The notes beneath the pieces are model-generated. The model was not told the DNA's origin. It saw only the letters and a program-made list of their open reading frames with translations, and searched no databases. A stretch of 64,000 nt of DNA, from contig NC_088711.1 of assembly GCF_963576615.1 (NCBI RefSeq), forward strand, positions 62,653,248-62,717,247, given 5' to 3'. This stretch comes from Watersipora subatra (lineage: Eukaryota; Bryozoa; Gymnolaemata; Cheilostomatida; Watersiporidae). Positions 30,229-57,458 of the stretch are shown here, in pieces; position 1 is the stretch's first letter, and every line of letters starts with the position of its first letter. A program made the translations under genes and the position numbers.

Positions 30229-30990
30229 CACTGTAAAAACTGTCAGACTTAGTGCGTGTGAAAAGTGAGTGATTCAGTGCAGTGACTGCTTGAATAATGC
30301 ATAATATTAGGCATTGGATGAATATTTTTCTGCAGTCCGAAAAACAATGCACTTTGTTAAAATATCCCCTTCTTTAAAACGCACTGTGATGAACTAAATA
30401 TTGAATTAAATTCTCAGGCAATGCAATGAAATCGCATTCAGTGTGTATTTTGCCATTACCTATCAGTATATTACAATGCGCTTAATGCTTAAACATTGCA
30501 CTTTGTATATAAAGCTAATGCGTATGATGCGTTTGTGATCCGCTTAACAGCGCCGAGTGAATTAAATTAAGATAAACACAATGAGTGCATAGAGAGCATT
30601 GATAATTATGCATTAACTGTTTATAATTTTTATGCGGTGAGGGTGTAGGCTTCAGGCATTTATGCACTGCTTGTGTTAACTAAATAAAAACTTGATAAGC
30701 GATTAAAATTTTGAACAGTAATGCGTCAGCTGCATTAAACTTGCAACACAGCCATTGCATTATTAGCAAAAATTTATGCACTGGTTGAATTGTTTACAAA
30801 AAATACTCACTACATGCTTAATAGTTGACAAATAAATAAGATACAGTAAACAGTCAGCGCATTAAATTTCCACATTTATGCAATGGTTGTGTGATTTTGT
30901 ACTTGAACTCAATAGGCGTGTATAGTTGAGAATATTAATGCATTGACTAGTTTAAGTATCAAGGTAGTCAGCGTCGTTTGTTTTGAAAGC
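30229..30990 (+). repeat. Left terminus and subterminal repeat block
   Basis: After CACTGTAAAAA there is about 750 bp with many variants of a motif around ATGCANTGNNTGNNTT (for example TGCAGTGACTGCTTGAA, TGCACTGCTTGTGTTAA, TGCACTGGTTGAATTG, TGCAATGGTTGTGTGA, TGCATTGACTAGTTTAA), plus GTGCGTGTGAAAA close to the end. CACTA-type elements have such arrays as transposase or accessory-protein binding sites. Confidence 0.6.
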
Positions 30991-31144
30991 CTATGAGCTG
31001 AATGTATTATTTACACTAAACCTCAACAGATTACCAGATGTTCAAATTCTGACCTGTCAATGTAATAGCTCATCTTAATTTACAATGCGATCAATTCATT
31101 AGGTCTGCACTAGCTCAGGCCCTAATCACTTTATCTGAATTGGA

Positions 31145-31192
31145 GTTGTCCCAATTTGAAATGGTCACGTGACCATTTCGAGTGGGGACAAT
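31145..31192. repeat. Palindrome centred on CACGTG
   Basis: GAAATGGTCAC|GTGACCATTTC (31158-31179) is a perfect 22-bp palindrome, with outer arms extending imperfectly (TTGTCCC...GGGGACAA). The centre is an E-box-like CACGTG. It could be a remnant fold-back or a protein-binding site. Confidence 0.7.
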
Positions 31193-31930
31193 TCTATTGC
31201 GGAATCCTACCTTTTTTCAATTGCTGTTTGCTGGTAATATCTGATGAGCATAGGTCTACATCTAAAGGATTACCAAACTTTGTTTTCATAATTACCGGTT
31301 TTCAACATGTCAAAGGAAGACCTTGACAAGCAGACACCAAGTGGTTAAACTTTTAATATGGCCATCCTCTGATCTACAGGTCTGTGTTATTATAGTAAGT
31401 GATTATATCTCGTGTGTATAATCTCAATGGCTTTAAGAGTTGGTCATTTTGCGAGATGGTCAAGGGCAGGCAACATTTCCAGCTGAATTACATCCAACAT
31501 GGAGTAGTTTGAGACATGGAAAACAACACCAATATTTGAGGTGAACTCTGCATATGTGATTCCGTTTGCGACAAACCAAACCCTTGAAATTTTTTCCGCA
31601 AAAGAAAATTAACTATTTCCCAAAAAAAAAACCAAGGTATATTCAACTTTACAAAATAAGACTTGACAATTTCTACAGAAAAGTGATACGGTTGATAGGG
31701 ATGTGGAGAGCGGTAGACATAATTGGAATATTCCAATTGAATTGGAAGTTAATAAAACGGGTTAGTAATTCCTCCAACTATTATTAGTTTTTTAAGGCGA
31801 CAAAGTTTTTCATTTCCCTAACTCATAAAGCGAACCGATTGGTTGAATAATAAAACCGATCATGTAATGTTTTGGGGGAGTTGCCCCCTCTCGCCTTTCG
31901 AGTTTAACTTCCTCCATCGGGAGTTGTTAA
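31193..31930. other. Transposon interior, no gene recognised
   Basis: Open stretches on both strands around 31490-31790 overlap each other and show no domain or splice support. Confidence 0.3.
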
Positions 31931-31934
31931 CCCT

Positions 31935-32760
31935 TTGGCAGGTGAGCTCTGTTATCACCACCTACTAGTATTACTACCATTACCCTGTGTATACTTCTTC
32001 ACTATGAAAATCAATTTGGTATTTTCACCATAGCTCCACCATTCTTGAAAAACTTTTATTTAATTCAAAGATGTGAGCTGTGAGCGAACTACTATAAATA
32101 AATGCCCCGACTCACACGCCCCTCACAAGTGTTTTATGTCTGCTACGTTAAACAGTTGGTAATTATAAATTGTCACTGCTATTATTATTTTAGAGCCGCA
32201 AATTTTCTGCAACCTAAATATAGTATGCAACTATTGATAATTGAACAAAAATATTGTTCTCCTGCTTTGGCGGAATTGTCCTCTCTCGCTTTTGATACTA
32301 GTTTAGCGACAGCATGTTTAATATCATTGGCCACTGCAAACAAAGTTGGCCAACTCCCAAGCAGCTTAGCTTGCCCATCACCATCTGTTAGTATATTATT
32401 ATTACCATTAACACCCTGCGTATACCCAAACTATTCCCACTTCGCAGAGAATAGTGCATTTTACCCTAACTTCAACTTTCTCGCAAAAAATTATCTTCTT
32501 CTATTCAATAATGTGAATTGCAAGAAAATTACATACTCATAGTTTTCAATAGACCGCAAAACAGTAAACCAGCTGGTAATAAGTGTTATAGCATTTTAGA
32601 GTTGGAAATTTCACACCACTAACATAGAGTGCAGCTATTGATAATTGGTGGAATTGTCCTCTCTCGCTATTGCTACTAATTTAGCTAGTGTGGATCGTTC
32701 ATTTTAACTTAATTTCACAATTAAAATCTCATTTTTCATTTTATCGACAATGGCTCGGAA
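31935..32760 (+). repeat. Degenerate direct duplication (~400-bp unit)
   Basis: A segment starting near 31935 (CTACTAGTATTACTACCATT...CCTGTGTATAC) recurs at about 32385. A segment at about 32220-32300 (CTATTGATAATTG... GGAATTGTCCTCTCTCGCT) recurs at about 32630-32680. Order and orientation are the same, with indels between, so the two halves are an old tandem duplication. Confidence 0.6.
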
Positions 32761-35090: not shown

Positions 35091-35351
35091 TTATTCAATA
35101 GTACAGACACCTATAATCTTACTGGCCCTGACTATTGGTGTAAAACAAGCTAATACGTTTGTTAAGAAGGGACAAGTCATACCGTTACAAATAGACCCTT
35201 TCGCTCTTCGGCTCCATTGACTCTTTAGGGTTCTTGTAAAACTCTGTAGGCTTACGATGTCATAGACAGGTGTTATTTGCCCATTGATCATAAATTTGCT
35301 CTCTGATGGTTCACTGAAAAAGTTATAAAACCTGTATTTTTGATGTCTCAA
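35091..35351 (-). CDS. Exon-like ORF, unknown function
   Basis: On the minus strand an 86-codon open frame includes FFSEPSESKFMINGQITPVY and continues to CNGMTCPFLTN, followed by GTATTA. A TTTTTCAG acceptor precedes the GAACCATCAGAG part. Composition looks coding, but the phase does not link it to the neighbouring exon-like ORF at 35980, and I do not recognise a domain. Confidence 0.25.
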   Translation of the reverse strand: MRHQKYRFYNFFSEPSESKFMINGQITPVYDIVSLQSFTRTLKSQWSRRAKGSICNGMTCPFLTNVLACFTPIVRASKIIGVCTIE

Positions 35352-35715
35352 GATTATTTAGCCTTTATTACAGCCGCAGGGGAAAGCAGTTCAGATTAGA
35401 TTTTTAAAATTACTTAATATTTGGATTTTGGAGTATTACTTTTTAGAAAAATGTTATTTGAATTTCGGTTATATACAGCAGTTGCAGAGATTATTGAAGG
35501 CCATTAAATAAAAAGAAAAAATAAGGTGTTTTGGTATAATAAAATAAATTTTAGTGAGACACGATTAGCCAAAAGTGGAGGGTTTTAATGGTCGCCAAGT
35601 CTGATTTTTAATTTTCTCTTTGGAATGACGATGTTTAAAGAACACTCCTTCTGACATCAAACTGGCTTTTACCGATGAAAATTTTAATGCTTCTTTGACA
35701 ATCAACCACTTTCAA

Positions 35716-35995
35716 AGTGAGTTATTCGCGTCGTCGGGTATTCGAGAACTTCTGAGATTTAACTTTATTTGACGCCAAGGTTGGCTTTATGAACGAAGCT
35801 TTCTTAATGGATTTTATATAATGAAATGGTTTGGTGCCGTTTTGCTGAATAACAGTGGTCTGAGGAGATTTCAACTCATAGATCCCACCAAGGCTTATAT
35901 TAACCAACTCATAATCCTTTTATGGCCAAGCTAGGGTAACAATAGATATAATAACAGTTGAGGGAAATCATAAACTCACAAATGGCTGGGAAACT
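35716..35995 (-). repeat. Dispersed duplication, copy A
   Basis: About 280 bp that recurs in the same orientation at 37226-37485, sharing GTCGGGTATTCGAGAACTTC and AACAATAGATATAATAA among other blocks. In copy A the minus strand stays open for 61 codons; copy B is interrupted. Confidence 0.75.
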
Positions 35996-36204
35996 GTGGG
36001 AAACGCACATTGAATGAATGACCTTACAGTGTCAGTAAAGATATTGTCAACAAAATAGGAATGAGCGCCAACCATAGGTGCCAAGTAACCGTGATTTGAA
36101 AAAGTGAGGTTTTTAGCTTTTTTGGATTTAAACGACTGAGGTTCATACCCTACACCCTGTAAAACTTTGAATGTGTGTCTAAGGACTTCTCTCATGCCCT
36201 CTTT
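35980..36204 (-). CDS. Exon-like ORF, unknown function
   Basis: The minus-strand segment is bounded by an acceptor (CACTATCAG|AAAGAG) and a strong donor (CATTT|GTGAGT), exactly 75 codons in phase 0. The peptide starts KEGMREVLRHTFKVLQGVGY and contains NHGYLAPMVGAHSYF. Its length in whole codons, splice sites and composition argue for a real exon of a further gene in the giant transposon, but no partner exon with matching phase was found and no family is recognised. Confidence 0.35.
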
Positions 36205-36488
36205 CTGATAGTGTATGACACTCTGTTAATATTATTGAATAAAAAAATAGCTAATCGCGTGTGGAGAGGAAAATTTACCCAAAATATCAGAAATATCCTT
36301 CTCAAAAAGGGAGACTCGGCAGCTATGGCGCCAACCAAAGTCCAAAACTGAGTAACCAAAGTTGGGATAGATTATAATCATTAAAACTGCTCCCAACACT
36401 TTTCCCGTAATATAAAAAAGCTGCTATGTGGATTACCAATTGGCATAATTTAGAATTAGATGCATGATTAGGACTATTAATTAGTGGT

Positions 36489-39769: not shown

Positions 39770-42700
39770 TCATACGGTATCAACAAATTCAGGATCAGAA
39801 AAATACCTTGGCTGAATATAACAAGCGGGTTGAAATGGCGGCAGTTTATATACATATAATGGATGGTGGTGGGGTAGACTAGATACCAGCCGCCAAACAA
39901 AATTTCCGGTACATTGCAATTTGTGAGCGAAGAGCCGAGCTTCAAACCATTCTGCTTTATATTCTTCTAGTAGAAAGGCTGTAATATAGTCATTGTTAGC
40001 CACTATTTGCAGAATTACTCCATAGGTATCGCTAGCTAGACGAAAGGCGTCCCCAATGCTATATCTAAAACCTACAAAGCAAGACAGTGTAGAATAATCT
40101 TTGTGTTTTGAAGATTTGTTTATAAATAAGTGATTGAATAACAATAACAGTTCAATAGAGCTTACTTACAGCGTATCCCATTACTTACCAGATATTGTGA
40201 TGGTGTTGCAGCATTGTGTGCAATCTCCCAAACTCTCCTGGATGTGCTCAGGTGGTTCAGGACTGTCTTCAGCGGTGCCTATCAAGAAAAAATTATCTTA
40301 CTCAAAGCCTGTTCGATAAGTTAGAGCAGAAATTAGCCATAGCATTTAACAACAGCTATCTGTCTCAGGTGACAAAAACCAAGTGGATGATTCCTCAGAA
40401 CACGTTACTGTAAAGCAGCGATTTCAAAACTCGATGCATGAGAACTATCAGGAAAGCCTATGACTACTGCACATGGTGACCGAAAAGCCAGTACTCCGAT
40501 AGAGGAGTACTCTGATAACAAAATGACTCCAAAGTCTTCAGACAATACCTCAAAAGAGTACCCCAATTTCTAGAAATGTTCAGTAAACTAACATATTTCC
40601 ATGCACGCACCAACTCCGTTACTCGAACACTATTGAGATATCAGCCACTGCAATACTTACGTGCGCCCTTGGTTTTGGCATTGTTGTGATGCAATACGCC
40701 ATGCACATTGGCATCTGCCCAATCATGGCAAAACTCGAGTTGGTGTCTGTTACTTAGACTTAGCGGCACATTCTTAAAGTTTCTCATGCGTAATGATTTG
40801 AAGAACGCATGTTTAGCCTCCATCCTTAAGCACCAGGTTCCTCTTGGAAGACCAAATCTGGTAAACAGTTACATAAAGTTACATGAAGTTTAAAGTTTTT
40901 ATGTGACAACTGATAATTACATAGTAAAATAATGCTTGAGATTGAGACATACTTTTAAAAAAAACATCACTGTAAAGTGGGATGCTGAACCAACCGACAT
41001 ACCGCAGCCAGCGGACCGCTTGCCATTAAATTGGAATGACATGAATCATGCTATATATATTTATACTGGCCTGATAAAATTATAGAGTTTTTGCCTGAGA
41101 ACTCACTTCACTATGTAGTAGGGGATGTGTACCAAGTAATGCATCTTGGGAGTAATGGTGTGAGCTCCATATACGGTCACCCAGGTTTCTAGGTATAATT
41201 TTATTAGCGTTGCGGCGGTTGTAATCTGGTCTTTGTTGAACGAATATGCCAACAGAACGGAGGTAATTTCAACCATCATCAACAGCAGTCTGTATTCTGG
41301 AATCTCTTCAATATTGTGGCCAGCCAGTATTAAAGGTAGAAGAAAGCCCAAACAGATAGTTTGAGTTGCTGAAAAAAGAGTTATAGATTAGATCTACAAA
41401 AAGCATAAGTTGCGTGAAAAGGAAAAATATATCAAAATTTGAAAAACTATTTTACCTTATTTCTTACACGAAGCAACAAACATAATAGGACTTTAAAAAA
41501 ATGCTAAAATATTGTAGTGGTTTAGATTGGGAAAGTCGCTCCACAAATCACCAGTTTAGAATTTAGATCATTAGCATTCCTCATTGACTGTCGAAATCAA
41601 ACAAAAACGTATTCAACTGCAGTAGGCTGAATACGAACCAGATTGACCAATTTTTCCGGTGTCTAGTCCATTGAAGCAAGATCTTTCCAAGCTACTGGGT
41701 GCATTTTTCTTGTCGTCTCCTCTGTATGGAAAGTTTTTGATGTGTTCATTCAATGACGATATAGAAATTATTCGGTTTTCCAGTAGCCTAGATACGAACC
41801 CCTTTATGGCATAAGGAAGAGTTCCTTCGCACACAATATGCATAATGTCAACAGGAATGCATTGGCAAACATCAAATCCATCGATCTTATCTAATATGGA
41901 TAGCGAGTTGATTCCGTATCGCTTTGAGTATTCTACACGCTGCCGAGCAGGCATCTCTGGACCGAGAAGGAGACAGTGGCGACGGTGACTCTCTATGTCT
42001 CTCAGTCTAAACTCCGTGTGGTTAAACTGTAGCATGTTTAAAAGCAATAGAAAGCAATACAAAGTTTCGCATCACACTGACGAAAAGAACTAGAAATTCA
42101 GAAACTTAGCAACCACACACTAGTAGCGACGTGCGACAGCATTAACATAATCCCTGATTCAGCGCACGGAATAGCTTCTATTCAAGATAAAAGTCTTATG
42201 ATAAGTGCATAACTAAAAAAGTTAACACAACAAGCACACTTCTGCAATAAACTGTATACCATAACACACAAACCTGTTGGATAATCTCTTGTGAGCTACC
42301 ATAACACGTCCGACATTTCATGGCTGCCCCTCCCACTCCTTCTTTAAACCCTGCTACCATATTGGCTGCTGGAGTGTCGCCAATAAAAAAAAGCAAAGAT
42401 CCTTTATAGATGTCCTTTCCGTCCCGATTCACAACTTCAATACCATCCTGAATAAAAGACATAGAATCTTTACTGTTTTATCCTTTTCAAACAATGGAAT
42501 AAAATACATTTTCGATCATAGACTTTTCATAAAGAAACTCTTTCACTAGCCAGAAAAGAGGTCAAATAACTTGAAGTTTAGATTCATTGCCAGGCTCTAG
42601 CTCCGGTTTTCAAAGCTAACCTATTACTATAAGAATATTATGATTACCTTCTTGAGTACATTAATTTCCTCGGCAAACTTTAGAAGGATAGCTTGGACTC

Positions 42701-43437
42701 CATATTCCTTAACGTCAGCAGAGTATGCCACAGCAAACAGGTGTATGAATTTCAATTGGGATCTGTGCTGAGGCGGGACATTCAGTAACGTCCAATAGAA
42801 AAGAGCTAACCATGAAAAACACAACAGTGTGAGATATGCTGTTTAAAAAAAAACAAATATTGTAAAACCACGAAATTCTGTTCCTGAAAACATGCAGCAA
42901 AATTCCACTTTACCTATCTTGTGCTTTTTTCTTTTGGAGCCAATTGGATTCACCTAGAAAAATATGACGATTATCAAAAGAATATGACCTCAAACCAACG
43001 CATGTGATAAGGATCAACAAAAATGAAAACTATTGAGTATTTGAAAAGCCATGTACGACGGTCAGTGATGGGACCTGAACATCTGCATGTTGACACAACC
43101 GAAACATAAATGGTAAATTTATTTATAGGCCTACGCAGAATTATGCCCAATTCTTCTGTGTTAGATGAGCACTTAAATTTGAGAAGGCAGTAGTCGCCAA
43201 TAAGTTTTGTGTAGCATAGTTGAAGGGCTTTATGATCCTTAAATCAACACACTTTTATTTGAGCTGACATACCACTTCAATATCATCATAATAGGCTGCT
43301 ACCATTATCTTTTGCCCGTCAGCAAAAAAGTCAGAATTCTGTGCATAATCAGCATCTATGCAGTCTTTGATTGCCCCATCTGGAGAGAATATTGGAAACT
43401 GTACTACATTCCGGATTTCTGGACTATCTAACATTAT
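39770..43437 (-). CDS. CMC/EnSpm-type (Transposase_21-like) transposase, nine exons
   Basis: Minus-strand exons, 5' to 3': 43437-43273, 42953-42914, 42805-42648, 42447-42274, 42026-41648, 41368-41107, 40857-40661, 40278-40189 and 40071-39770 (TGA). Every junction has GT-AG and matching phase, giving about 588 residues without a stop; the N-terminus is missing. Recognisable blocks: YYDDIEVVNPIGSKRKKHKI (exons 1-2), FIGDTPAANMVAGFKEGVGG then CRTC (exon 4), YGINSLSILDKIDGF and PVDIMHIVCEG (exon 5), ITPKMHYLVHIP (exon 6), RMEAKHAFFKSL (exon 7). This succession is that of repetitive EnSpm-like transposases of animals. Candidate catalytic acids are the Asp of GDTPAAN, the Asp of DIMH and the Glu of MEAKH; that assignment is inference. 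An upstream exon is needed. Confidence 0.8.
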
Positions 43438-44350
43438 CTGCAAACAGATGAATGAATACATGAGAACATAGACTAAAGCTTTTTTGCATAATTTTGAAAG
43501 CAAAATGTTGGTTGTACTTTTAGCATTTAGTTAGGTTCCATGAGGTGATGATAGTTGGTCGACAATGTTGTGTTTCTAGTCAAAGATGACTCAATTTCCT
43601 CATGGAACCCTATTGTGTGATGTTTATATTTGTCTGATAAATTAGAGCAACTCTTCAGGGTGACAAGTGCTTTATTGTTCATTGCTATATTGTTGATGGG
43701 AACAGCTAAGGCGCTCTTTGTTTACATAATCATTAGCAAATTAGGTTTACAAATGGTCTGAAATAAAGATATGTTCAGTACAATGGGAACATGGCCAAGC
43801 CAATTAGCAAAATAAGTCACTATAAATAAACTCACTAACTGTAGACCAACTATCAACCTAGGGAACCTAACTTGTTACACTAACTTAGCTGTGTCACTGA
43901 AAAAAATTTAAAGAGCTAATCCTGAAAAAATTACTTGTCCATAGCCAGTTCACTAACGGTAATTAGCAGGAATCAATTCTTATTGAAATCGCAGAACTAT
44001 GACAAGCGCAGCACATTTGACAACCTTTTTCATATATTTTCTCTCAGAAGTTATCTTGCATGTTTGCAGTTATTAAGCGCACAAGTATTTACCTGGAGAG
44101 TTGATAGTACGGATACATAGTAAAATGGTCTTCTAGCGGTGTTGTTGTAGCGAATTGGAGTCGATTCCTACAAGCCACAACACGACATTTAGGTTAGGAT
44201 ACAATTAATTGGTTGGTGTACACTTTAAGGAAAATTCAAACGAAAGAGGCTTATTTCCAAACAGGCTTTTATCATATCTTTATTTCTCTAAACACCCCAA
44301 TGGTTCCAAGGCAAGTGATCTAATGTGAATATTGTCAATTGACTGCAATT
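43438..44350. other. Upstream region of transposase gene
   Basis: At least one 5' exon of the transposase should lie at higher coordinates, but I could not place it. A minus-strand VNTCALNNCKHAR segment near 44090-44050 has a CX4C-like look but is too short to call. An inverted repeat GGTTCCATGAGG...CCTCATGGAACC is at 43536-43608. Confidence 0.3.
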
Positions 44351-45356: not shown

Positions 45357-46520
45357 GTGACACTAAAGCATTAACTAAAATGAAACACTGAGTGATCGTA
45401 ATCTTTTAAAAACTCCCAAGAGTTAACGCAAGAAGAATTATAGGCCTATATTATACTCTTTAGTTTAAAAATATTAAGGATTTGATCAGCATCTTTTCCG
45501 AATTTGCTTTGTATTCTTAGATTATAGGCAGCAAACAGCTAGATAATTTTTTTGATTCAGTGTGTCAACTAAAATTTGACTTTTTTTAGTACAAACACAT
45601 TAACCCTCTCACCCCTGATGCCAACTATTTCGGGAGAAGTTGTTCACACTTGGGCCTGAAGCCAACACTTTCGGGACACTTTCTGAGTAACTTTATTGAT
45701 ACTCCTTTTGTGTTTATCGTTTTTTATAGCTTTATTTCGAAAGATAACAGTCTGAGGATTGTTTTGATACCAGAAATGTGGTTGGATAAAAGCATTTTAC
45801 TAGGCAAATCCTGTGATAGATTTCAAACTTCAACTCTTGAGGTCGCCATATTGAATGCGTTTGCCGAAAGACAACGGCTAAATCTTACAATCTAACGTAA
45901 TAATTAGTTCAGGTGAAGAATTTAGCAGTGACAGTGATCTACAACAACACTATGACCGTTTATTAGTAGCACAAAGTGGGTTTCAATTGCACAACGTCAA
46001 AATTACTAAATTGTTATAACTTTTAAATTTTTCGAAGAAAAAAATTTTATTTGACAAATCTTTTCACAATTTTAGTTGATAAAAACGATACATTATATTA
46101 GTTTTGTACTCCAGTTGTTTGCATCTCGTGTTTATTATCATAACTGCAATAAATGTTGTCTTTATAGAATGTAAATATGATATATAGCCTTATATACCAA
46201 TTGATTGAACAATGGAACGGAAACTACATTATGCCGTAATATTGCGTATAGGCTCATAATTTCAGTTCTATTGGTTAGAACTCCAAATTTTTTTTTGCAA
46301 CTTGATGATAACACCTTTTCTTGTCATCCTAATATGTTACTGAAGTGTTATCAACCAAAAAGCTGACTGGTAGTAGCAGCCAAACTTTGACTTTTCGATT
46401 TCCAAAAAATGTATCGATTTGAATATTATCAATAACATCCTATATAGATTGTCTTTGTTTGGTCTGATAGACTACGCGATCATGGTATTCATGTCTATGT
46501 TATAACCTCCGCCAGTTGGT
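45357..46520. other. Spacer between the two transposon genes
   Basis: No gene recognised. TTAACCCTCTCACCCCTGATG at 45600 looks like a piggyBac-type terminus, followed 300 bp on by a short acidic SSGEEFSSDSD reading; no matching opposite end was found. Confidence 0.3.
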
Positions 46521-47010: not shown

Positions 47011-50000
47011 CTCTCTGGGGAAATGTATGAAATACCTACGAAGACTCAAAGAGCTTGTCAAAAGTGTTCAAAAGGTAAATTTTACGTTCTTCTTTTAGCA
47101 AAATTTAGCTTGATTATTGTTGAGTATAATAGTTTTATGCATATCATTTATATCGGAGGCGCCTCTATTATTGGTCTTTGCATTTTCAGAATAACTTACC
47201 AAGTGCTGCCCCCTCTGTTGCGCTTACACTACCAACACCTAATGAAACTGCTTCAACACTCGGCGCTGCGGTCGCATCACCACCTGCTTCCATGCCGGCC
47301 ACACCTAGACCTGTGGTTACCACACCTAGACCTGTGGTTACCACACCTAGACCTGCGGTTTCAACACCTTCCTCTGCTGTTTCCGCTATTTCAGGATCAC
47401 CTGCCGCCGAACCTATTGCTTCAGCCTCTGCCACTGCTGAGGCGACTGTTTCAACACCCTCTAGCTCTCCATTGTTTATGCGAGTGAGTAACAGCAATAT
47501 ACTGTAAATTATGTTGTTGTTGTTGCTGTTGTTAATATTTATTGAGGTTAGCTAGAGAAAATAAATCCTGTCGACCTGTCTAAATTCGTTGGCTGTTCTT
47601 TGGCTGTCGATAATGTTGAATTGATTGCACAACTTAAATTTGTAATGTAAATTTTTACGTACATTAGACCTGCTAAGTATGGTGCTGTTTGAATTGTTGA
47701 ATCTTAGTAGGTTAGCCTTGATTGAAAGCGCTTGTAATGGGCAACTCTTGGTAGTCACACTTTATCGTTCGAGCAGACACTATGCATTTTACACTGCAGT
47801 ATTTTCTGTCTATGAGAAAAACTCCGCCTTAGGCAATTAATTAAGTAATTTGCCTTAAAAGTTAATATACACTATGGCTTTTCCCTATAGTAAGTAAGAA
47901 CTCAGTTTTATTGTTTTATAGGAGCTCAATGTACCTCAATTTACTGGACGAGAGACCAGGAAAATGGTTGTACAGGCGATTGGGGAAGCTAATTGGTCCC
48001 ATAGTCACAGCAGACCCAACTACGATAGTGTGGTACTAAAAGTCCTGAGGCAATTTCCAGATAAGAGTGACATCTTCAAAGACGCTAGCTATACCGAAGA
48101 TAAGGATTGCTACGTGAGTTTTTTTTATAATCGTGAATAGGTCTACTTACTACCGGGCATGTAGCCTACTGTCCTGCAGATTCATTTAGCAATACTTCGC
48201 ATTGGCGTGCAGCTTTCCACAATTTATTTTACAGAAACTTACATCATATCCGTTATCCATCAAGGGTTATTTCGTGTATGTAGAAATTTTCTAAGCATTT
48301 GACCCTCTCAGGGAGGGAGAGAGATACCTAATGCTTGTTAAATACCTGTCGGAGTTGTCTACTCTGTCATTTATTTTCATGCATTCACTATGAATGTTAA
48401 TATGGGCTATTGAGTGATATTTTCATATTTATTATGAGAAGTGTAATAAGTGATCCAGAAAATGTAAGCCCTTCCGTTGATATTTATGCAACTGAAACTG
48501 AAATGATTGAGCTTCTAATTGTTGTTTGGGGAGGCATAGCTTCATTTCAGCTTTATATTAGGAATGAAGGGTTAGCTTTATTTTTTTACTATCATAGTAA
48601 ACGCTATGAGCCAGTGTAATCTAGCGTTGATTTGCATAACCACCATTGCAAGAGTCCAAAGCTGGGTAAACTTTAAATTTGTTTCAAGATGATTGGAAAA
48701 TATTCTGTCTGATGGACTAGAACTGAGCAACTCTCTCTGGTTTTCATGCTAGCTAATCTATACACATATGATATTTTTATACTCCCTTTTTAGTTTTGTA
48801 ATCATACTATTTTTTTGCGCATCTATAGTTTATCAGGATCTACATTCTTTGCTTGTAGAAGGTTTTCAAAAGACAGTTATCTTGCAGCGTAAGAAACAAA
48901 AGAAGCTACTATGCGAAAAAACAAAAACTCGATCAAGAACCTGCTGCTTCGGTCACCGGGTTCGTATTTTACTTGTTAATTCTCCTCTTTATTGTTGACG
49001 TCATAAAAATAATTTAAAATTTACCGTTTGAGATGAATAGTCAATCAGAATCGCAATTTATATTGACGTCTTAGGTTTTGATGATAAGCATTATAATATT
49101 GTATGTTTATGTATGTTATAAGCATTATAATATGTTTTTTATGTATGTTATGCTTTTGATCTTTGTTTGAAGTGAATCATTGTAATCTATTATCCGCACA
49201 TCCCCCTCCCTTTGCAAGGACAAATAGACATCTCAATGTTTCATAAGATTTCTACTCATATAACTCATAAAAATGCGACAAACACTTTGTCTTCTGTAGC
49301 CATAATTTTCATCTTTTAATTTCTTACAGGGATATAGTGGTGAGGGCAGAGGCACTAGTGGTTTCTCCGAGCAAGGAAAAGAGGAATTTGCGGGTTCAAA
49401 ATCTTGACACAATTCCACAGGTAAGGTAGCATAGTTTACTCAATAAGAGTATCAGGGGCTAGCGGTAGATAAAAATTTGTGATCCTCATTGTCTGCGTTG
49501 GAGTTACCCCCACTATAAAATAAGATCGAAGTAGCCGCTTATAGTGGGTGCAACTCCAACGCAGACAATGAGGATCACAAATTTGATCTAGGCTAGTGGT
49601 ACTAATTTATAACCAACATCTTGTGTTGCTTTCAGTAGATCTCTTAGGTGTGTGCAGCTTGCTTTATTGTGTTTTTAAAATATATGAGGGAGTCTTGATT
49701 ATGCAACAGCCTTTCGAGCGCCTTTTGTTTCATCCGCTAAATGTTTCAAGTAATTTTTGTTGTGGTATTACCATTCTTGTTATACATCATTGTTGCTAAT
49801 GATCGGGCTCCACTTTGTCGCCGCCAAAATCGCTTCTAAATTAAAGATTTGCTTATATTTCTAATGGCAGCATTCACTGACAGTCGCGTTTCGAATAATA
49901 TTATAATGAGGCATGGAGTGTCAGTGTCACGGCTTTTAGGGTTCCACTTCTTTGAAAAGGTGGACATTTTTCTAACAATCTATTATGTAACCAGTTATAT

Positions 50001-53000
50001 ACTCCCTGATGGCACGGCTAAACTTGATTATTGTTGAAATTTTTATGGTAACTTTTCACCCTTTATAGCAAGTTGAATAAAATTTGTAGTTTTCGTTGAT
50101 GATGCCCTAACTTTAACCACAGTAAACTATAAGAACTCTATAATCAGTCTTCATATTGCAGAGTGCGGTAAAGGAGATGCTTCGTCCATCATTGTCTATT
50201 AGGAAAGAGGCTTTTAAGAACATGAAAGATGGTTGGAGTGGCATGGTTGTTGAGTGGCCAATTTATGGACAGGAGGCTTTTGTAAGTATTACTCTCCAAA
50301 ATAACATGAACTTTCAAAATTTTGCCCATTCTCCCAGTATCCTATTTTGAGCCCAGGTCTCACGTAGTGTTTTAGTGGATTGATATTAAAAAGCTACAAG
50401 CGAAGTCTTTGCAATACAACCTGCACCGAATACCAATTTGCATGAGCTGAAGATGGCTACCTACTTCCAAAGCACAATTTTAAATAAACTTGACTAGACT
50501 CGTCACTCTTTATAGTTTCTCAAAGAATAATGTCTTAGTCTTGGGATTAACTGAAACTTTAAATGTTATATATTATTGGAGACCGAGTTGAACTGAAATT
50601 CATTGCAAGGGGAAAATTCCAGTTAGTTTCTCTCTATGGAGGGAATTTATAATATGTGCACAGTAATTTATAGTTTAAACGATGGATGACTTGCCGGATT
50701 ATGGTCAATTTCGGCAGTTGCCTGTCCTATCTGGCCACTGGATTAAACGATTGCCAAGTTTTTATTTAGCACTATTCTGGCGCAGCATTGAACGTAATCC
50801 TACCACTGAGCAGACTTACTGCCTATCTATTAGGAGTTTTCTTCTCCATAATCAGAGGATAACTTTATGGTCTTCTAAAAAATCTTCAGCACTCTACTCC
50901 CAAATATGTCTTTGGCATAGACTTTGAACTATGTTTTCACTGAAAATGTATGGCATACCTTCTCTAAGTCAGAATTCCTAGCCTGTTTTCTTAGTAATAA
51001 GCAATTTCTGAAAATTTATGAGCAAAAAGTTATGAAGTCTAGATTTGTTGGCTATTTTTTAAAAATAAATATGTTTGGGCCCAAAATCAAAGGAATAAAT
51101 TTCAAGAAAGAGTAAGGTATTGTTTTACTATTATGTATTCCACTCCAACTTGCCCATGTGCATAAACCATTATTGTTAGTATGTGTTTTCTATAAAATTG
51201 TAGTTTGGGCTTGTAACATATTCCTGCTGGTAGGACAGTGTTTAATCTAAGGTGGAATAGGGAGAGGGTTAGCCGGAAAACACGACAGCCTTGCCGTGTT
51301 TTCCGGCAAAGAGATAATCCTGCACCTCTAGCATTATACAGGCAAATTATGGCAAATCACAGTCAGGGATGTGATTCATAAGCTAAAAAGTTTATTTTAA
51401 GCTATTTTGTATTAGCTCCGAACGCTGGCTTACTGTACGCTATTCATTGCCTTCACCATTTAAGTATACCTTAGGTGGTATTTTTATCTATCCACTTCAG
51501 TATATAAACACATTTATTTCATAATTTTATGATTGAAATGCTGCCTCGGGCTTTTGCTCAAAGTACTTTGTCAACGACTTCCGTCAGCAAGCTAAAATGA
51601 ATTTTGGAAATCACATGCCTGCTAGTTATCCATCGTTTAAACTACACATATAAGACAACTCACATTTCTAGCTTCGATTTCATTCATCTGACCCTATGCG
51701 TTTAGGTTTTTACATTGTAATTATTACTATCTAAGTAGGCTTCAGCATAATTGAATTTCTAAAAAAATTTCGGCGTTGTGGTCAGGTCAGATATGTGTTT
51801 CTGACTGGACATCTATCTGACCACAGCTTTTAAAAATTCACCACCAAAGTTTTTTGATTATATAAATAATATTGTCAACTCGTATTAAGTTTGTTAAAGG
51901 TCTATATCGTTGAGGGCTTAGAATTACTTCATGTAAGAGCAGTAAAGTGGTTCATTGAGGGTCATAACTAGTTTTTATTTACGGGCAAGTCGACTGAATG
52001 TCGATATTTCTTGAATTCTATAGATTTGCTACAGGAAGAATATTGAAGATAAATGTTTGTACTTTATTTCTCGCTTGCTAAAATGTCTTCTTCTTTCAAA
52101 TTAGCGTCGATATTTTGAAGTTGCTTATTTTTTTATTGCTTGTTAGCTTATACCTGAGCTTGAGCTCCTTCTGAATCGGGACTTGGATTTGGACGCGTTG
52201 GGAAAGCGAGCAGAGGATTTGTTCATGGCTGCATGTCCAAAAGAGACTAATCGTAAGTGTATTTATTATCTTCAAATTTACGTACTTTCTTTGCAGAACA
52301 ATATGTTACTTTATGCGCTAGCAACGGCTCAATTATCAAAATAATATCAACCGCCAAAATGATATAAGTCGGAGTCGGGTGCCCATGATTTTAGTCAGTA
52401 TTACTGGCTTTTTACCTCACGATAATAGTAATCTACGGAGTTTGTCTCACCCTATTTTCCATTCCAATGCTTTACATGTGCAGCAGCTTAAACAAGAACT
52501 AGTCTCTATTGTTGGAGGTCTTACCTGGTAGTGTGTAGTCAAAAAAAGTTTAAATATAACAAAAATACTTTGTTTGCAGCGAATGATTATGGATTTGAGA
52601 AACTGGTGATCGTGATTGGAAAGCGCCTTGGAGACAAAAAGATGCTGGCCGAAACACCCGAACACAAAGTGAGTGGATTTCTTAGTTCGGTAACTTATTA
52701 ACGTCATACATTAGGCTGACTATTGGTTCGCAACTCCAACTTAGCGTGTTAGAGGTTATTAGGATGTTTATACAGGAATGTTGTTAACGTCATAAATTAG
52801 GCTGACTATTGGTTCGCAACTCCAACTCAGCGTGTTAGAGGTTATTAGGATGTTTCTATAGGAATGTTGTTAACGTCATACATTAGCCCGTCTATTGGTT
52901 CGCAACTCCAACTTAGCGTGTTAGAGGTTATTAGGATGTTTCTATAGGAATGTTGTTAACGTCATACATTAGCCCGTCTATGGGTTCGCAACTCCAACTT

Positions 53001-56000
53001 AGCGTGTTAGAGGTTATTAGGATGTTTCTATAGGAATGTTGTTAACGTCATACATTAGCCCGTCTATTGGTTCGCAACTCCAACTTAGCGTGTTAGAGGT
53101 TATTAGGATGTTTCTATAGGAATGTTGTTAACGTCATACATTAGCCCGTCTATGGGTTCGCAACTCCAACTCAGCGTGTTAGAGGTTATTAGGATGTTTC
53201 TATAGGAATGTTGTTAACGTCATACATTAGCCCGTCTATGGGTTCGCAACTCCAACTTAGCGTGTTAGAGGTTATTAGGATGTTTCTATAGGAATGTTGT
53301 TAACGTCATACATTAGCCCGTCTATGGGTTCGCAACTCCAACTTAGCGTGTTAGAGGTTATTAGGATGTTTCTATAGGAATGTTGTTAACGTCATACATT
53401 AGCCCGTCTATGGGTTCGCAACTCCAACTCAGCGTGTTAGAGGTTATTAGGATGTTTCTATAGGAATGTTGTTAACGTCATACATTAGCCCGTCTATGGG
53501 TTCGCAACTCCAACTTAGCGTGTTAGAGGTTATTAGGATGTTTCTATAGGAATGTTGTTAACGTCATACATTAGCCCGTCTATTGGTTCGCAACTCCAAC
53601 TTAGCGTGTTAGAGGTTATTAGGATGTTTCTATAGGAATGTTGTTAACGTCATACATTAGCCCGTCTATGGGTTCGCAACTCCAACTCAGCGTGTTAGAG
53701 GTTATTAGGATGTTTCTATAGGAATGTTGTTAACGTCATACATTAGCCCGTCTATGGGTTCGCAACTCCAACTCAGCGTGTTAGAGGTTATTAGGATGTT
53801 TCTATAGGAATGTTGTTAACGTCATACATTAGCCCGTCTATGGGTTCGCAACTCCAACTTAGCGTGTTAGAGGTTATTAGGATGTTTCTATAGGAATGTT
53901 GTTAACGTCATACATTAGCCCGGCTATTGGTTCGCAACTCCAACTCAGCGTGTTAGAGGTTATTAGGATGTTTCTATAGGAATGTTGTTAACGTCATACA
54001 TTAGCCCGTCTATGGGTTCGCAACTCCAACTTAGCGTGTTAGAGGTTATTAGGATGTTTCTATAGGAATGTTGTTAACGTCATACATTAGCCCGTCTATG
54101 GGTTCGCAACTCCAACTTAGCGTGTTAGAGGTTATTAGGATGTTTCTATAGGAATGTTGTTAACGTCATACATTAGCCCGTCTATGGGTTCGCAACTCCA
54201 ACTTAGCGTGTTAGAGGTTATTAGGATGTTTCTATAGGAATGTTGTTAACGTCATACATTAGCCCGTCTATGGGTTCGCAACTCCAACTTAGCGTGTTAG
54301 AGGTTATTAGGATGTTTCTATAGGAATGTTGTTAACGTCATACATTAGCCCGTCTATTGGTTCGCAACTCCAACTTAGCGTGTTAGAGGTTATTAGGATG
54401 TTTCTATAGGAATGTTGTTAACGTCATACATTAGCCCGGCTATTGGTTCGCAACTCCAACTCAGCGTGTTAGAGGTTATTAGGATGTTTCTATAGGAATG
54501 TTGTTAACGTCATACATTAGCCCGTCTATGGGTTCGCAACTCCAACTTAGCGTGTTAGAGGTTATTAGGATGTTTCTATAGGAATGTTGTTAACGTCATA
54601 CATTAGCCCGTCTATGGGTTCGCAACTCCAACTTAGCGTGTTAGAGGTTATTAGGATGTTTCTATAGGAATGTTGTTAACGTCATACATTAGCCCGTCTA
54701 TGGGTTCGCAACTCCAACTTAGCGTGTTAGAGGTTATTAGGATGTTTCTATAGGAATGTTGTTAACGTCATACATTAGCCCGTCTATGGGTTCGCAACTC
54801 CAACTTAGCGTGTTAGAGGTTATTAGGATGTTTCTATAGGAATGTTGTTAACGTCATACATTAGCCCGTCTATTGGTTCGCAACTCCAACTTAGCGTGTT
54901 AGAGGTTATTAGGATGTTTCTATAGGAATGTTGTTAACGTCATACATTAGCCCGTCTATGGGTTCGCAACTCCAACTCAGCGTGTTAGAGGTTATTAGGA
55001 TGTTTCTATAGGAATGTTGTTAACGTCATACATTAGCCCGTCTATGGGTTCGCAACTCCAACTCAGCGTGTTAGAGGTTATTAGGATGTTTCTATAGGAA
55101 TGTTGTTAACGTCATACATTAGCCCGTCTATGGGTTCGCAACTCCAACTTAGCGTGTTAGAGGTTATTAGGATGTTTCTATAGGAATGTTGTTAACGTCA
55201 TACATTAGCCCGGCTATTGGTTCGCAACTCCAACTCAGCGTGTTAGAGGTTATTAGGATGTTTCTATAGGAATGTTGTTAACGTCATACATTAGCCTGAC
55301 TATTGGTTCGCAACTCCAACTTAGCGTGTTAGAGGTTATTAGGATGTTTCTATAGGAATGTTGTTAACGTCATACATTAGCCCGGCTATTGGTTCGCAAC
55401 TCCAACTCAGCGTGTTAGAGGTTATTAGGATGTTTCTATAGGAATGTTGTTAACGTCATACATTAGCCCGTCTATTGGTTCGCAACTCCAACTTAGCGTG
55501 TTAGAGGTTATTAGGATGTTTCTATAGGAATGTTGTTAACGTCATACATTAGCCCGTCTATGGGTTCGCAACTCCAACTCAGCGTGTTAGAGGTTATTAG
55601 GATGTTTCTATAGGAATGTTGTTAACGTCATACATTAGCCCGTCTATGGGTTCGCAACTCCAACTTAGCGTGTTAGAGGTTATTAGGATGTTTCTATAGG
55701 AATGTTGTTGACGTCATACATTAGCCCGTCTATTGGTTCGCAACTCCAACTTAGCGTGTTAGAGGTTATTAGGATGTTTCTATAGGAATGTTGTTAACGT
55801 CATACATTAGCCCGTCTATGGGTTCGCAACTCCAACTCAGCGTGTTAGAGGTTATTAGGATGTTTCTATAGGAATGTTGTTGACGTCATACATTAGCCCG
55901 GCTATGGGTTCGCAACTCCAACTCAGCGTGTTAGAGGTTATTAGGATGTTTCTATAGGCATGTTGTTGACGTCATAAATTGGCTGGACTGGTTTCGGCTC

Positions 56001-56600
56001 CAATCTGACTTACTTTTTACTGTTTTAGGTAAGCCATTCTCTTCCCCACCTCAAATTTGGGAAACTCTGTGTGGATGGGGAAAAGTTAAGCGTTAGTGAG
56101 GACCCTCTCGTCCTGCTAAAACTTCTGGCAGTATTTTACATTGGGGACATCGAGTTTGGCGACGCCAAGAAGTTTGGCCAGCTGCTGGAGTTTACCTTCT
56201 TGGGCTCCAGCACCGTGAGAAAGGGAAGCAAGTATTTGTCTGTCGACAAATTTATGGAAAAAATGAAGCGGGTGAGTACCTAATGACTCAGCTATGCTAG
56301 TTTTATATCTGTCGAAAAACTAAGTAGGATTCGAATGAATTTCTATGGTAGCAATTTATCATATAATTCATGAGAAGAGAACTCCAAAATGTAACTTTTG
56401 GCGCAAAAAACGATTTCAACCAGTTGTAAAATCATTGAAACTAAAATTTCCGAGAACACTCATATCCTAAACTCATTGGTCGAGCTTTTTGCCGTCTTCC
56501 TAGTCTTATTTTTAACGTTTATTTTTCATGTTGGAATTATCATAAATCATAGAAACATTTTTTTTCTCTTTTGCAGGAAAGCCGAGCCGACGATGAGTAG
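47011..56600 (+). CDS. Accessory transposon gene, SAMD3-like layout, about ten exons
   Basis: Exons: 47011-47074 (Met at 47027, MKYLRRLKELVKSVQK), 47190-47483, 47922-48113, about 48837-48951, 49330-49420, 50162-50281, 52147-52252, 52580-52668, 56029-56271 and 56577-56600 (TAG). Phases match at all joins except exon 4/5, where my donor is wrong or an exon is missed. Exon 2 is Pro/Thr/Ser/Ala-rich with three copies of TPRPVVT, a likely disordered linker. Exon 3 has ELNVPQFTGRETRKMVVQAI. Exon 4 is basic. Exon 9 holds a compact segment (VDGEKLSVSEDPLVLLKLLA...). This order resembles repetitive animal proteins annotated as SAMD3-like; the match is by pattern. It runs divergently from the transposase, and I infer an accessory DNA-binding or regulatory role. 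Intron 8 holds the satellite. Confidence 0.65.
47190..47483 (+). other. Pro/Thr/Ser/Ala-rich exon with internal 21-bp repeats
   Basis: Exon 2 of the accessory gene, 98 codons in phase 0 at both ends. A 21-bp repeat (CCTAGACCTGTGGTTACCACA) occurs three times at 47306-47366. All six frames are nearly open because of composition; the frame is fixed by phase agreement with exon 3 (..LFMR|ELNVPQ..). Confidence 0.75.
49474..49584. mobile_element. Fold-back MITE in intron of accessory gene
   Basis: Left arm AAATTTGTGATCCTCATTGTCTGCGTTGGAGTT and its complement at 49552-49584 are near perfect, with inner arms CCCACTATAA/TTATAGTGGG around a short loop. No coding potential. Confidence 0.85.
51273..51309. 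repeat. Short hairpin in intron
   Basis: GCCGGAAAACAC and its exact complement GTGTTTTCCGGC flank a 12-base spacer; this lies in the 1.9-kb intron between exons 6 and 7 of the accessory gene. Confidence 0.8.
52689..55978 (+). repeat. 86-bp satellite array, about 38 copies, in an intron
   Basis: Head-to-tail units of 86 bp (containing TTAACGTCATACATTAGCCC, GGTTCGCAACTCCAAC and GAGGTTATTAGGATGTTTCT) fill intron 8 (52669-56028) of the accessory gene. Copies are almost identical, differing mainly at CGTCTAT(T/G)GG and AACT(T/C)AG. The variant CGGCTATTGG occurs at 53921 and 54437, exactly six units apart (516 bp), and again at 55211 (nine units). Units between the first two repeat in the same order, showing a six-unit higher-order duplication. 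First and last copies are the most diverged, as expected for unequal exchange. Confidence 0.95.
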
Positions 56601-56858
56601 GCGAAGAAAAGCAAGTGCCGGCAAAGCCTGGAACGCTATAAGTCTAAAACATAACAACAAAATTCATAGAACACAATTCACACGAAATAGTAACCTTTCC
56701 AATCCAGTATGCCAAAGTGACACCACTTTTAGAGCGAATTATTTACGTGATTTGGGGTTTGGGCTTACTCAATGGATTTTATGGAATCGTGCTCTCTTTT
56801 ATATTATTGTAGATAGTTTTTTTTAATTATTATTCTAAATCGATCTTGATCAAACAGA

Positions 56859-56981
56859 TGCTGTGTGTTTTTCGAGTTATTTAGTGCTTTTATTAAATGG
56901 TGTGTGTGTTTTTCGAGTTATTTAGTGCTTTTATTAAATGCTGTGTGTGTTTTTCGAGTTATTTAGTGCTTTTATTAAATG
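56859..56981 (+). repeat. Three-copy 41-bp tandem repeat in 3' UTR
   Basis: Three copies of a ~41-bp unit containing TTTTTCGAGTTATTTAGTGC, downstream of the accessory-gene stop codon, with short TG-run differences. Confidence 0.9.
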
Positions 56982-56986
56982 TTAAT

Positions 56987-56992
56987 AATAAA
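56987..56992 (+). terminator. Polyadenylation signal of accessory gene
   Basis: AATAAA directly after the 3' UTR tandem repeat and 387 bp past the stop codon at 56598. Nearest plausible signal. Confidence 0.5.
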
Positions 56993-57034
56993 TTATATAT
57001 ACTCGCTGTTTAAAAATATCCTTGGCTGAAAAAA

Positions 57035-57458
57035 ACGCAGAGCTGTTTGTAAAGTGATTAAACTTGTAAACACTTGCTGCGTTCAAATTTGACCCTAAAA
57101 TATAATGCGCCAAGCGTGTAAAACCAGGTTGCAATGCTAAATGCACTCAGCGTGTGAAAATCGTCTTCGTATAGAAAACTCAGTCAATGTTTAAAAACTG
57201 CAATTTTTAAACGCTAAGTGCGTACATATTTTGGTTTTATGATTAATGCACAGTGTGAATAGAAATTGCCTTGAAAAATGACCATCAGCAGTGCGTTAAT
57301 TTTTAGTTGCACATCGCATAAAACGATGAATAGAAGTGTGTTTTTATTGAATGAATAGCGCATGGACATTGCATAATTTTCGAGTGTGTAGTTTTTCAGG
57401 TGCATTGAAAAATGACCATCTGAGGTGATTGAATACTGCATAGATTTTTTTTACAGTG
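57035..57458 (-). repeat. Right terminus and subterminal repeat block
   Basis: Short related motifs recur: TAATGCGCCAAGCGTGTAAAA, TGCACTCAGCGTGTGAAAAT, TAATGCACAGTGTGAATAGA, AGTGCGTTAATTTTTAG, TAGCGCATGGACATTGCATA, GTGCATTGAAAAATGACCAT (the last phrase AAAAATGACCATC occurs twice). GCGTGTGAAAA also occurs near the left terminus at 30249. The block ends with the inverted TTTTTACAGTG terminus. This echoes the left-end block. Confidence 0.6.

Follow-up and report, generated by a model that had tools for sequence, protein, structure and literature searches.

A very large, recently mobile CMC/CACTA-type transposon with two divergent genes in the genome of the bryozoan Watersipora subatra

Introduction

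CACTA/EnSpm transposons, which are found in plants, fungi, and some animals, are characterized by CACT(R) ends with CA..TG termini, subterminal motif regions, and a spliced DDE transposase with CxxC and HxxxH motifs, all of which recur in the element described here. They often carry a second gene, which is TnpA in plants, and their classical target duplication is 3 bp long. In other members of the CMCT clade (CACTA/EnSpm–Mirage–Chapaev–Transib) the duplication comprises 2 bp (Mirage) or 5 bp (Transib and RAG), and ProtoRAG has a two-gene layout, as has the bryozoan element. A CMCT-type transposase is common to Mirage, ESTA, and the bryozoan element. In PMC12730594, EnSpm families are given with 3-bp duplications and ESTA are EnSpm-like fungal elements with TA duplications, a feature shared with the bryozoan element; unlike the latter, the ESTA families of that paper contain a TET/JBP dioxygenase. 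Enlarged En/Spm elements of the red alga Chondrus crispus are likewise large and multi-gene, but according to PMC6431247 they are smaller (16-20 kb) and have more ORFs (4-5). In the open-licence literature, neither an account of a SAM or SAMD3 protein paired with a DNA transposon or EnSpm nor, among the titles listed, one on a Watersipora or bryozoan element of CACTA/EnSpm type was found.

The locus in W. subatra has the 5'-CA..TG-3' termini (CACTG..CAGTG) and a duplication within the 2-5 bp of the CMCT clade. It differs from CACTA/EnSpm proper by a TA-preferring duplication, which in 26 of the 28 script-read pairs is 2 bp instead of 3 bp, by its size of about 28 kb, by a second protein for which a SAM fold is predicted and no relatives were detected, and by a transposase that itself reaches no Pfam transposase family. 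A TA on both sides, as in Mirage/ESTA-type 2-bp TA duplications, is present in 24 of 29 pairs. The predicted transposase fold matches RAG1 and HzTransib, but the 2-bp duplication and the divergent gene arrangement set the element apart from Transib, RAG1-RAG2, and ProtoRAG, and no RAG2-like protein came up in searches that were not specific for RAG2. As an example of a very large animal cut-and-paste transposon that moved very recently, the family is unusually clear, and a single assembly holds near-complete copies, moved deletion derivatives, and empty sites. It offers a test case for how a RAG1-fold transposase mobilises 28 kb and for whether a SAM-domain partner is workable, a question relevant to the origin of the partnership between RAG1 and RAG2. 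Insertion polymorphism between populations is open to direct study, since this fouling bryozoan is widely spread.

Ends, copies, and target sites

The transposon copy under study is an internally deleted derivative of 27,230 bp at positions 30229..57458 of the window, that is, of the whole stretch of 64,000 nucleotides that was analysed. Its left end at 30229 starts with CACTGTAAAAACTGTC, its right end at 57458 closes with ...TTTTTTTTACAGTG, and TA adjoins both:

30227..30228, no strand: target duplication TA, left copy (sequence; empty sites with a single TA)
30229..30239, plus strand: left terminal inverted repeat CACTGTAAAAA (sequence; 34 left ends in the genome)
57448..57458, minus strand: right terminal inverted repeat (TTTTTACAGTG) (sequence; 31 right ends in the genome)
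57459..57460, no strand: target duplication TA, right copy (sequence; dinucleotide comparison of paired copies)

The inverted ends, which had been pointed out together with the TA flanks in an earlier note on this DNA, recur in the host genome, with 34 left and 31 right ends that form 29 pairs in the correct orientation and leave five left and two right ends unpaired. All 34 left ends match positions 1-572 of the query, 29 of them at the maximum score. The pairs span 11.6-30.3 kb apart from one of 53 kb, and four of them measure 27,975-27,984 bp.

The flanking dinucleotide is identical on both sides in 27 of the 29 pairs. Among the 28 pairs read by script, 26 have the same dinucleotide (23 TA, 1 TG, 1 AA, 1 CA) with a match not longer than 2 bp; the remaining pair, which was missed by the script pattern and read by eye, has TA on both sides with a match that extends to TATA/TATA. 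The copy at C4:50546111 has a 3-bp match (ATA/ATA) and no plain 2-bp duplication, and no matching flank dinucleotide was present at C4:64750649. Of the CACTA-type duplication of 2-3 bp that the note had invoked, the usual form in this family is 2 bp, not the 3 bp of classical CACTA.

Empty sites were found for two of the three copies tested. When the joined flanks were searched in the genome, 38 of 40 listed matches for the window copy (two read by eye) and 8 of 10 for the copy at C9:51203612 (seven over 1-400, one over 2-400) crossed the junction, the other two in each search being the copy's own flanks. Since these paralogous empty sites exist, insertion of both copies was precise. For the C47 copy, which has TA on each side, no empty site was found; joining its flanks does not restore the repeat that holds the left flank, and in the three places read this repeat has different continuations. 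As had been proposed from the window, the element is a real mobile unit; it has defined ends and a mostly 2-bp duplication.

Co-occurrence of the two genes and age of the family

Part of the second gene is present in all 29 paired copies and part of the transposase gene in 23 of them, in agreement with the suggestion that the two divergent genes travel together. The refuting cases named in the note, namely ends that never pair, a lack of empty sites, and regular occurrence of either gene outside such ends, did not arise. Among the matches listed, all 132 for the transposase and all 92 for the second gene are situated within element copies or next to them; the second-gene search scored 91 of its 672 first-look candidates. 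Given the genome copies, the empty sites, and this co-occurrence, the observation lies far beyond chance.

About 41.6 kb of aligned sequence were compared between copies and differ by about 0.1%. Among all first-look candidates for the ends (34/34 left and 31/31 right ends scored) none was diverged, nor was any gene copy among the matches scored in the host genome. Because of this small difference and the lack of older copies in these searches, the family is concluded to have spread in a recent burst.

The transposase gene

The minus-strand gene is spliced at GT/AG sites into one open frame and consists of the following exons:

39770..40071, minus strand: last exon, stop at 39770-39772
40188..40277, minus strand: exon in NCBI model P0001, borders approximate
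40661..40857, minus strand: exon with E408 of P0001, the third acidic residue
41107..41368, minus strand: exon with HxxxH
41639..42026, minus strand: exon (PVDIMHIVCEG)
42274..42447, minus strand: exon with D144 and CxxC
42648..42805, minus strand: exon
42914..42953, minus strand: exon
43273..43437, minus strand: exon with D50
44093..44167, minus strand: exon upstream of the NCBI model start, exon 4 in the complete gene as inferred (by eye, it resembles P0004 and P0005)

Both genes of the element match NCBI proteins of W. subatra. The NCBI transposase model P0001 has nine exons here, the number given earlier, and the exon further upstream raises this to ten. P0001 contains D50, D144, C165-x2-C168, H384-x3-H388, and E408, which are invariant or conserved in at least 90% of 17 aligned proteins, and D50, D144, and E408 are the putative catalytic residues. 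This D..D..CxxC..HxxxH..E layout of the CMCT clade, together with the CA..TG ends, upholds the original classification as a CMC/CACTA-type transposase. The predicted structure (pLDDT 86.6) points to a RAG1/Transib-type fold: all 45 PDB matches with E<=0.001 are RAG1 (43) or Transib/HzTransib (2), with TM scores of 0.29-0.48 by query length for RAG1/HzTransib.

Protein searches returned 109 other matches for the transposase with 23-39% identity. An N-terminal region with C2H2-like residues is present in all of 16 aligned relatives except P0002 and P0074. Pfam searches with P0001 and with a 793-aa reading gave no transposase family, with neither Transposase_21 (PF02992) at E<=1 nor PF18759, and searches with single exons gave nothing useful. 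Over the 17 aligned proteins, at E<=0.01, PF02992 was found in three and the Plavaka family PF18759 in four, which the transposase of the bryozoan element does not match. A search of viral contigs for relatives gave 49 pattern matches, none of which was confirmed.

The second gene

The plus-strand gene is likewise spliced, as had been read from the window, with GT/AG sites, and its retained exons are:

47011..47074, plus strand: first retained exon, with which the SAM region closes
47190..47483, plus strand: exon, Ala/Pro/Thr-rich linker
47922..48113, plus strand: exon; acceptor placed further in by NCBI models P0111 and P0114
48837..48959, plus strand: exon; acceptor and frame differ in NCBI models P0111, P0112, and P0114
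49330..49420, plus strand: exon
50162..50281, plus strand: exon
52147..52252, plus strand: exon
52580..52668, plus strand: exon
56029..56271, plus strand: exon, C-terminal region
56577..56600, plus strand: last exon with stop

Exons 3-5 as first drawn contained one joint out of frame, which is resolved in P0111 by the use of other acceptors. The exons coding for residues 1-45 are absent from the window. Residues 2-67 are predicted to form five helical segments (pLDDT 80-85 for residues 1-60 and 68 for residues 61-70), and in a Foldseek search with this N-terminus the best 26 matches were SAM domains or complexes thereof, with a best probability of 0.98 and none at E<=0.001; three of these, whose titles do not say so, are presumably SAM domains. 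Pfam SAM_2 stayed below the cutoff (E=0.021). Taken together, a SAM fold is predicted for the N-terminus; beyond residues 1-67 the single-sequence model has a mean pLDDT of 37 and is not reliable. The former label 'SAMD3-like' finds no support as such: a predicted N-terminal SAM fold is shared with SAMD3-like proteins, and the protein searches, which returned W. subatra proteins only, gave no sequence relationship. No relatives outside W. subatra were found in 5.8 billion proteins, one of the searches having scored only the 7,999 candidates that shared most words.

The window copy as a deletion derivative

The window copy had been taken as the whole element, but a 3.65-kb segment is deleted from it:

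46449..46450, no strand: deletion junction; 3,651 bp of L044 (2029-5679) missing; same junction in L093

The missing segment holds transposase exons 1-3, exons 1-2 of the second gene, and the stretch that separates the starts of both genes; 1,635 bp of it are found complete at 14 places in the genome. The same junction occurs at a second site, C6:51225840, with 351/351 identical bases, and since it lies at two different sites the derivative has moved, presumably in trans by means of the family's transposase. The window copy itself probably makes neither full protein. Its length results from the deletion being partly offset by a longer 86-bp array (38 units rather than about 7), and the complete element would measure about 28.0 kb, consistent with the view that it is very large for an animal DNA transposon.

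The difference between the window copy and L044 goes beyond a simple deletion. Of the extra segment of L044, 239 bp (2219-2457) are present elsewhere in the window, at 45365-45603, and 11 of the 43 mismatches to L044 fall into one 855-bp stretch beside this piece. Two further copies of 12,790 bp contain no transposase match and are identical in 3,400 of 3,401 bases read, with different flanks and TA on both sides of each; both carry about 940 bp that are absent from the window copy and from L044. Hence two kinds of derivative are each found at two sites. Because derivatives that lack the 5' exons of the second gene have moved, the product of this gene, if needed, would act in trans. An intron loss considered for the copy at C8:18960532 was rejected in favour of a deletion with about 40 bp of filler.

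Proposed explanation and alternatives

It is quite probable that the family as a whole is a young, recently active cut-and-paste CMCT transposon with two genes, in which the SAM protein may serve as a helper. In the complete element, the two divergent genes would start about 660 bp apart near the middle, with a minus-strand gene for a RAG1/Transib-fold DDE transposase of about 793 aa with N-terminal C2H2-type fingers and a plus-strand gene for a protein of about 467 aa, whose N-terminal SAM fold is followed by a linker of low complexity and then by the C-terminal part. The transposase is suggested to cut at CACTG..CAGTG and to insert mainly at TA with duplication of 2 bp. Incomplete repair after excision may lead to internally deleted derivatives that keep both ends and that, the window copy included, could be moved by protein from complete copies. 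The SAM protein would most likely aid transposition by self-assembly on the motif-rich ends, bringing these together, and would resemble plant TnpA or RAG2 in role, not in descent. Rather unlikely in its full extent is the further proposal of a recent horizontal invader with a RAG1/Transib-fold transposase, whose SAM-domain protein polymerises on the subterminal arrays, pairs the ends of a 28-kb element, and has independently filled a TnpA/RAG2-like role.

The most serious alternative, although a doubtful one, is that the second gene is a passenger captured by a one-gene CMCT transposon, with no role in transposition or with one in regulation or host interaction. This would agree with the absence of relatives outside W. 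subatra as opposed to the 109 other matches for the transposase, with the mobility of derivatives that lack its 5' part, and with the extra DNA in the two 12,790-bp derivatives, by which the family may pick up DNA. However, the second-gene exon matches are nearly constant in identity across copies, the divergent 5' region is common to both genes, and no second-gene match lies outside element copies among the candidates scored. That the window copy is complete and autonomous is very improbable: both ends are intact and its retained transposase exons form one open frame with the three acidic residues, but transposase exons 1-3 with the C2H2 region, of a kind present in most of the aligned relatives, are missing along with second-gene exons 1-2 and the sequence between the starts.

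Two further readings concern the copies as such. An old resident family made uniform by gene conversion is improbable, since the copies differ by so little and neither diverged ends nor diverged gene copies appeared among those scored, even though the strongly varying length of the 86-bp array indicates some turnover. It is hardly conceivable that segmental duplication or dispersal of a host gene cluster gave rise to the copies; for an animal DNA transposon they are unusually large and unusual in gene content, yet flanks differ at the compared sites while exact ends are common, the same dinucleotide adjoins 27 of 29 pairs, and the precise empty sites of two copies refute this reading.

Subterminal regions and tandem repeats

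Both ends of the element contain motif-rich regions, and two tandem repeats lie in its right part:

30240..30950, no strand: left subterminal region, RTGCR-rich (AATGC, AGTGC, ATGCG) (motif count)
52698..55980, no strand: 86-bp tandem array, 38.2 units (repeat detection)
56862..56981, no strand: 41-bp tandem repeat, 2.9 units (repeat detection)
57035..57447, no strand: right subterminal region with RTGCR motifs (motif count)

The first 600 bp contain 25 RTGCR motifs, against a mean of 12.3 and a maximum of 28 in 300 Markov resamplings, and the last 460 bp contain 14, against a resampled mean of 7.7 and maximum of 17. The subterminal motif arrays reported earlier are therefore present at both ends, but with only mild enrichment against local shuffles. 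Four 500-bp bins of the window hold at least 10 RTGCR motifs, three of them at the ends of the element (30000, 30500, and 57000) and the fourth at 60500, outside the element. The 86-bp array comprises about 7.2 units in 13 of 22 other copies measured, and between copies it ranges from about 6 to 38 units.

Genome copies and mobility of the element

The element at 30229..57458 of the window (27,230 bp) is real and recently mobile. The earlier note had read it as one mobile unit, which is borne out by 29 paired genome copies, matching flanking dinucleotides in 27 of the 29 pairs, and two empty sites. Its ends and TA flanks also hold as described there: the left end, CACTGTAAAAACTGTCAG, starts at 30229 and the right end, ...GATTTTTTTTACAGTG, finishes at 57458, with TA adjoining each. 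The terminal repeat common to both ends comprises only 11 bp. Subterminal motif arrays are present in that RTGCR is dense at both ends, but the excess over resamplings is modest. At least 10 RTGCR motifs per 500-bp bin are found in four bins of the window, three of which lie at the element ends (30000, 30500, 57000) and the fourth at 60500. Compared with same-dinucleotide resamplings, the left end has 25 motifs (mean 12.3, maximum 28) and the right end 14 (mean 7.7, maximum 17). These statistics would not by themselves decide whether the element is mobile; the genome copies do.

All 34 genome matches of the left 572 bp span query positions 1-572, 29 of them at maximum score, and the right 469 bp occur at 31 places (32 rows, one place being split into two). 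Correctly oriented downstream right ends were found for 29 of the 34 left ends, leaving five left and two right ends without partner. The paired copies are 11,584 to 30,317 bp long, apart from one of 53,021 bp. Two right ends of the same orientation, C6:44561829 and C6:44575439 (C-numbers denote contigs of the W. subatra assembly, in which the window is C4:62653248-62717247), lie 13.6 kb apart with no left end found nearby. Flanks were read by script for 28 pairs and, as printed, differ among all of them. An identical dinucleotide on both sides, with no longer match, is present in 26 of these (23 TA, one TG, one AA, one CA); one of the TA pairs, C3:23399817, has an N in the left flank past three bases. 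The pair at C4:64750649 has no matching flank dinucleotide, and the sole flank match at C4:50546111 is the 3-bp ATA. In the 29th pair, C2:17244458, a base change in the left end escaped the script pattern; its flanks, taken from the sequence letters, both carry TA, which extends to TATA.

Empty sites, which the earlier note had proposed as a check, were searched with the joined flanks of three copies after removal of the element, and were found for the window copy and C9:51203612 but not for the C47 copy. The window flanks were joined with one TA, and 40 of 424 first-look candidates were scored. Of these, 38 cross the junction to base 225 with 92-99% identity, and the remaining two are the copy's own flanks; two of the 38 sites were inspected by eye and have a single TA. 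For C9:51203612, eight of ten matches cross the junction, seven of them covering 1-400 and the eighth 2-400; identity is 99% in four and 85-86% in the other four. The remaining two matches are its own flanks. For C47, 40 matches out of 3,699 candidates were scored, and 38 of them are paralogs with the left flank only. Different sequence follows in the three paralogs read, so the C47 insertion involved a rearrangement or a deletion. This copy sits at a high-copy repeat (3,699 first-look candidates; stretches L094-L096 and the left flank of L001). Those of the repeat copies that are listed on chromosomes occur mid-chromosome, perhaps in centromeric regions, on C1, C2, C3, C5, C9, and C11.

Association of the two genes

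Neither the minus-strand transposase gene nor the plus-strand second gene was found away from element copies among the matches listed. All 92 second-protein matches fall in or beside copies, 86 of them in the 29 paired copies with at least one in each, and six near the two unpaired C6 right ends. Likewise, 124 of the 132 transposase matches lie in 23 paired copies and eight near three unpaired ends. These counts rest on 91 of 672 first-look candidates scored for the second protein and 74 of 126 for the transposase, so that distant paralogs could be missed. The association is partly positional, since the last second-gene exons lie near the right end.

The complete element and its derivatives

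The 27-kb unit had been taken as the whole element, but the window copy is incomplete. The first 45 residues of the second-gene protein annotated by NCBI are absent from the window, even as a 7-mer. In the copy at C6:47658852 (stretch L044), 3,651 bp (L044:2029-5679) are present at the place equivalent to window 46449/46450. They hold the first two exons of the plus-strand second gene. Three minus-strand exons in the same segment extend the transposase, giving it an N-terminus with C2H2-type fingers that resembles the N-terminus of its relatives; the apparent start codons of the two genes are about 660 bp apart. The difference between the window and L044 is more than a deletion, because a 239-bp piece of the extra segment (L044:2219-2457) sits at 45365-45603 in the window; this piece may be a small mobile repeat. 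A part of the segment measuring 1,635 bp (L044:2466-4100) was found whole at 14 places, 13 of which belong to paired copies, and incompletely in another four copies. As four paired copies of 27,975-27,984 bp all carry this part complete, the complete element is probably near 27.98 kb, the window's being the sole copy read end to end; the other paired copies with the complete part measure 19,639 to 30,317 bp. In the C6:47658852 copy, second-gene exons are also partly duplicated internally and there is an N stretch, and in the NCBI second-gene protein P0113 the linker is repeated.

The window copy is almost full length only because its 86-bp array (52698-55980) reaches 38 units. Match positions gave the array size in 22 other copies. 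About 7.2 units, to within 2 bp, are present in 13 of them. The difference from the window array is an exact multiple of 86 in 18 of the 22, deviates from one by 2 bp in two, and by about 25 bp at C7:52292000; at C4:64750649 the array region is lost. This minisatellite ranges from about 6 to 38 units among otherwise near-identical copies; arrays of at least 18 units occur in six copies without the complete 5' segment and in one with it.

Derivatives carrying deletions have moved. The window copy's junction recurs unchanged (351/351 bases) in the copy at C6:51225840, which is at a different site with TA on both sides. Two 12,790-bp copies on C8 without transposase match are identical at 3,400 of 3,401 bases read and occupy different sites, each with TA on both sides. 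The bases read include about 940 bp (L091:1-941 and L092) that neither the window copy nor L044 has and that may be captured DNA. At C8:18960532 a deletion is sealed by about 40 bp of filler (L090:475-513). Incomplete gap repair after cut-and-paste transposition is known to leave such deletions in Ac/Ds, P, and En/Spm elements and would account for the internal deletions here.

Classification of the transposase

The earlier label of an EnSpm-type transposase stands as regards clade. Residues D50, D144, C165-x2-C168, H384-x3-H388, and E408 (numbering of the NCBI protein P0001) are invariant or at least 90% conserved in 17 aligned proteins. This D/D/CxxC/HxxxH/E layout is that of the CACTA/EnSpm-Mirage-Chapaev-Transib (CMCT) clade, according to PMC12730594. 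A structure model from 17 sequences (mean pLDDT 86.6, pTM 0.88) matched 43 RAG1 and two HzTransib chains and nothing else at E≤0.001 in Foldseek, the predicted fold being like theirs. DNMT1 chains also matched the model weakly (E 0.06-0.09, ranks 48-50); as a guess, its beta-rich C-terminus might contain a BAH-like domain. No Pfam transposase family matched P0001 or the 793-aa reading; among the 17 aligned proteins, four matched Plavaka and three Transposase_21 at E≤0.01. The transposon is filed in the CMCT clade, where it may belong with Mirage, ESTA, or Plavaka, and not as EnSpm proper, from which its 2-bp duplication sets it apart.

The second protein

Sequence searches with the second protein returned relatives in W. 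subatra only. Residues 1-67 are predicted with fair confidence to form five helical segments in a SAM-like bundle. In Foldseek the first 26 ranks are all taken by SAM domains or complexes thereof, none at E≤0.001 with a mostly low-confidence model, and phmmer and Pfam indicated SAM below threshold. Self-association is common among SAM domains, which suggests that the protein may assemble on the motif-rich ends; its putative helper role is an interesting question. No animal CMCT element of 28 kb that carries a SAM-domain partner turned up in the literature searched. Red-alga En/Spm families of 16-20 kb are called significantly enlarged in the giant-transposon review PMC6431247.

Age and origin

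Between copies, 43 mismatches and 10 gap openings were counted across 41,624 aligned bases (0.10%) in matches of at least 200 bp and >97% identity, some stretches being double-counted (e.g., L005/L032 and L027/L042); 11 of the mismatches are concentrated in a single stretch of 855 bp in L044. With every first-look candidate for the ends scored (34/34 left, 31/31 right), no diverged end was found, nor was a diverged copy of either gene among the candidates scored. The copies show a recent burst. The closest database proteins are from W. subatra (transposase 95%, second protein 80-99%), and the best transposase relatives outside this species reach at most 39% identity. Arrival by horizontal transfer is plausible.

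Neighboring features

The window contains further mobile-element sequences and repeats:

14298-18337, minus strand: second retroelement, broken and similar in kind to that at 23421-27746, with RT in one frame and RNase H and integrase in another
22094-22639: fragment matching TNP-like_RNaseH_C, presumably of a P-element-like family
23421-27746: long 1441-aa open frame of a retroelement, taken to be of Ty3 type, with protease, RT, RNase H, and integrase matches
62611-63795: 394-aa frame matching DDE_Tnp_4, presumably a Harbinger-like transposase
28024-28749: immediately left of the element, pure (AT)45 run and AT-rich inverted repeat with arms of 118 bp that are 87% complementary
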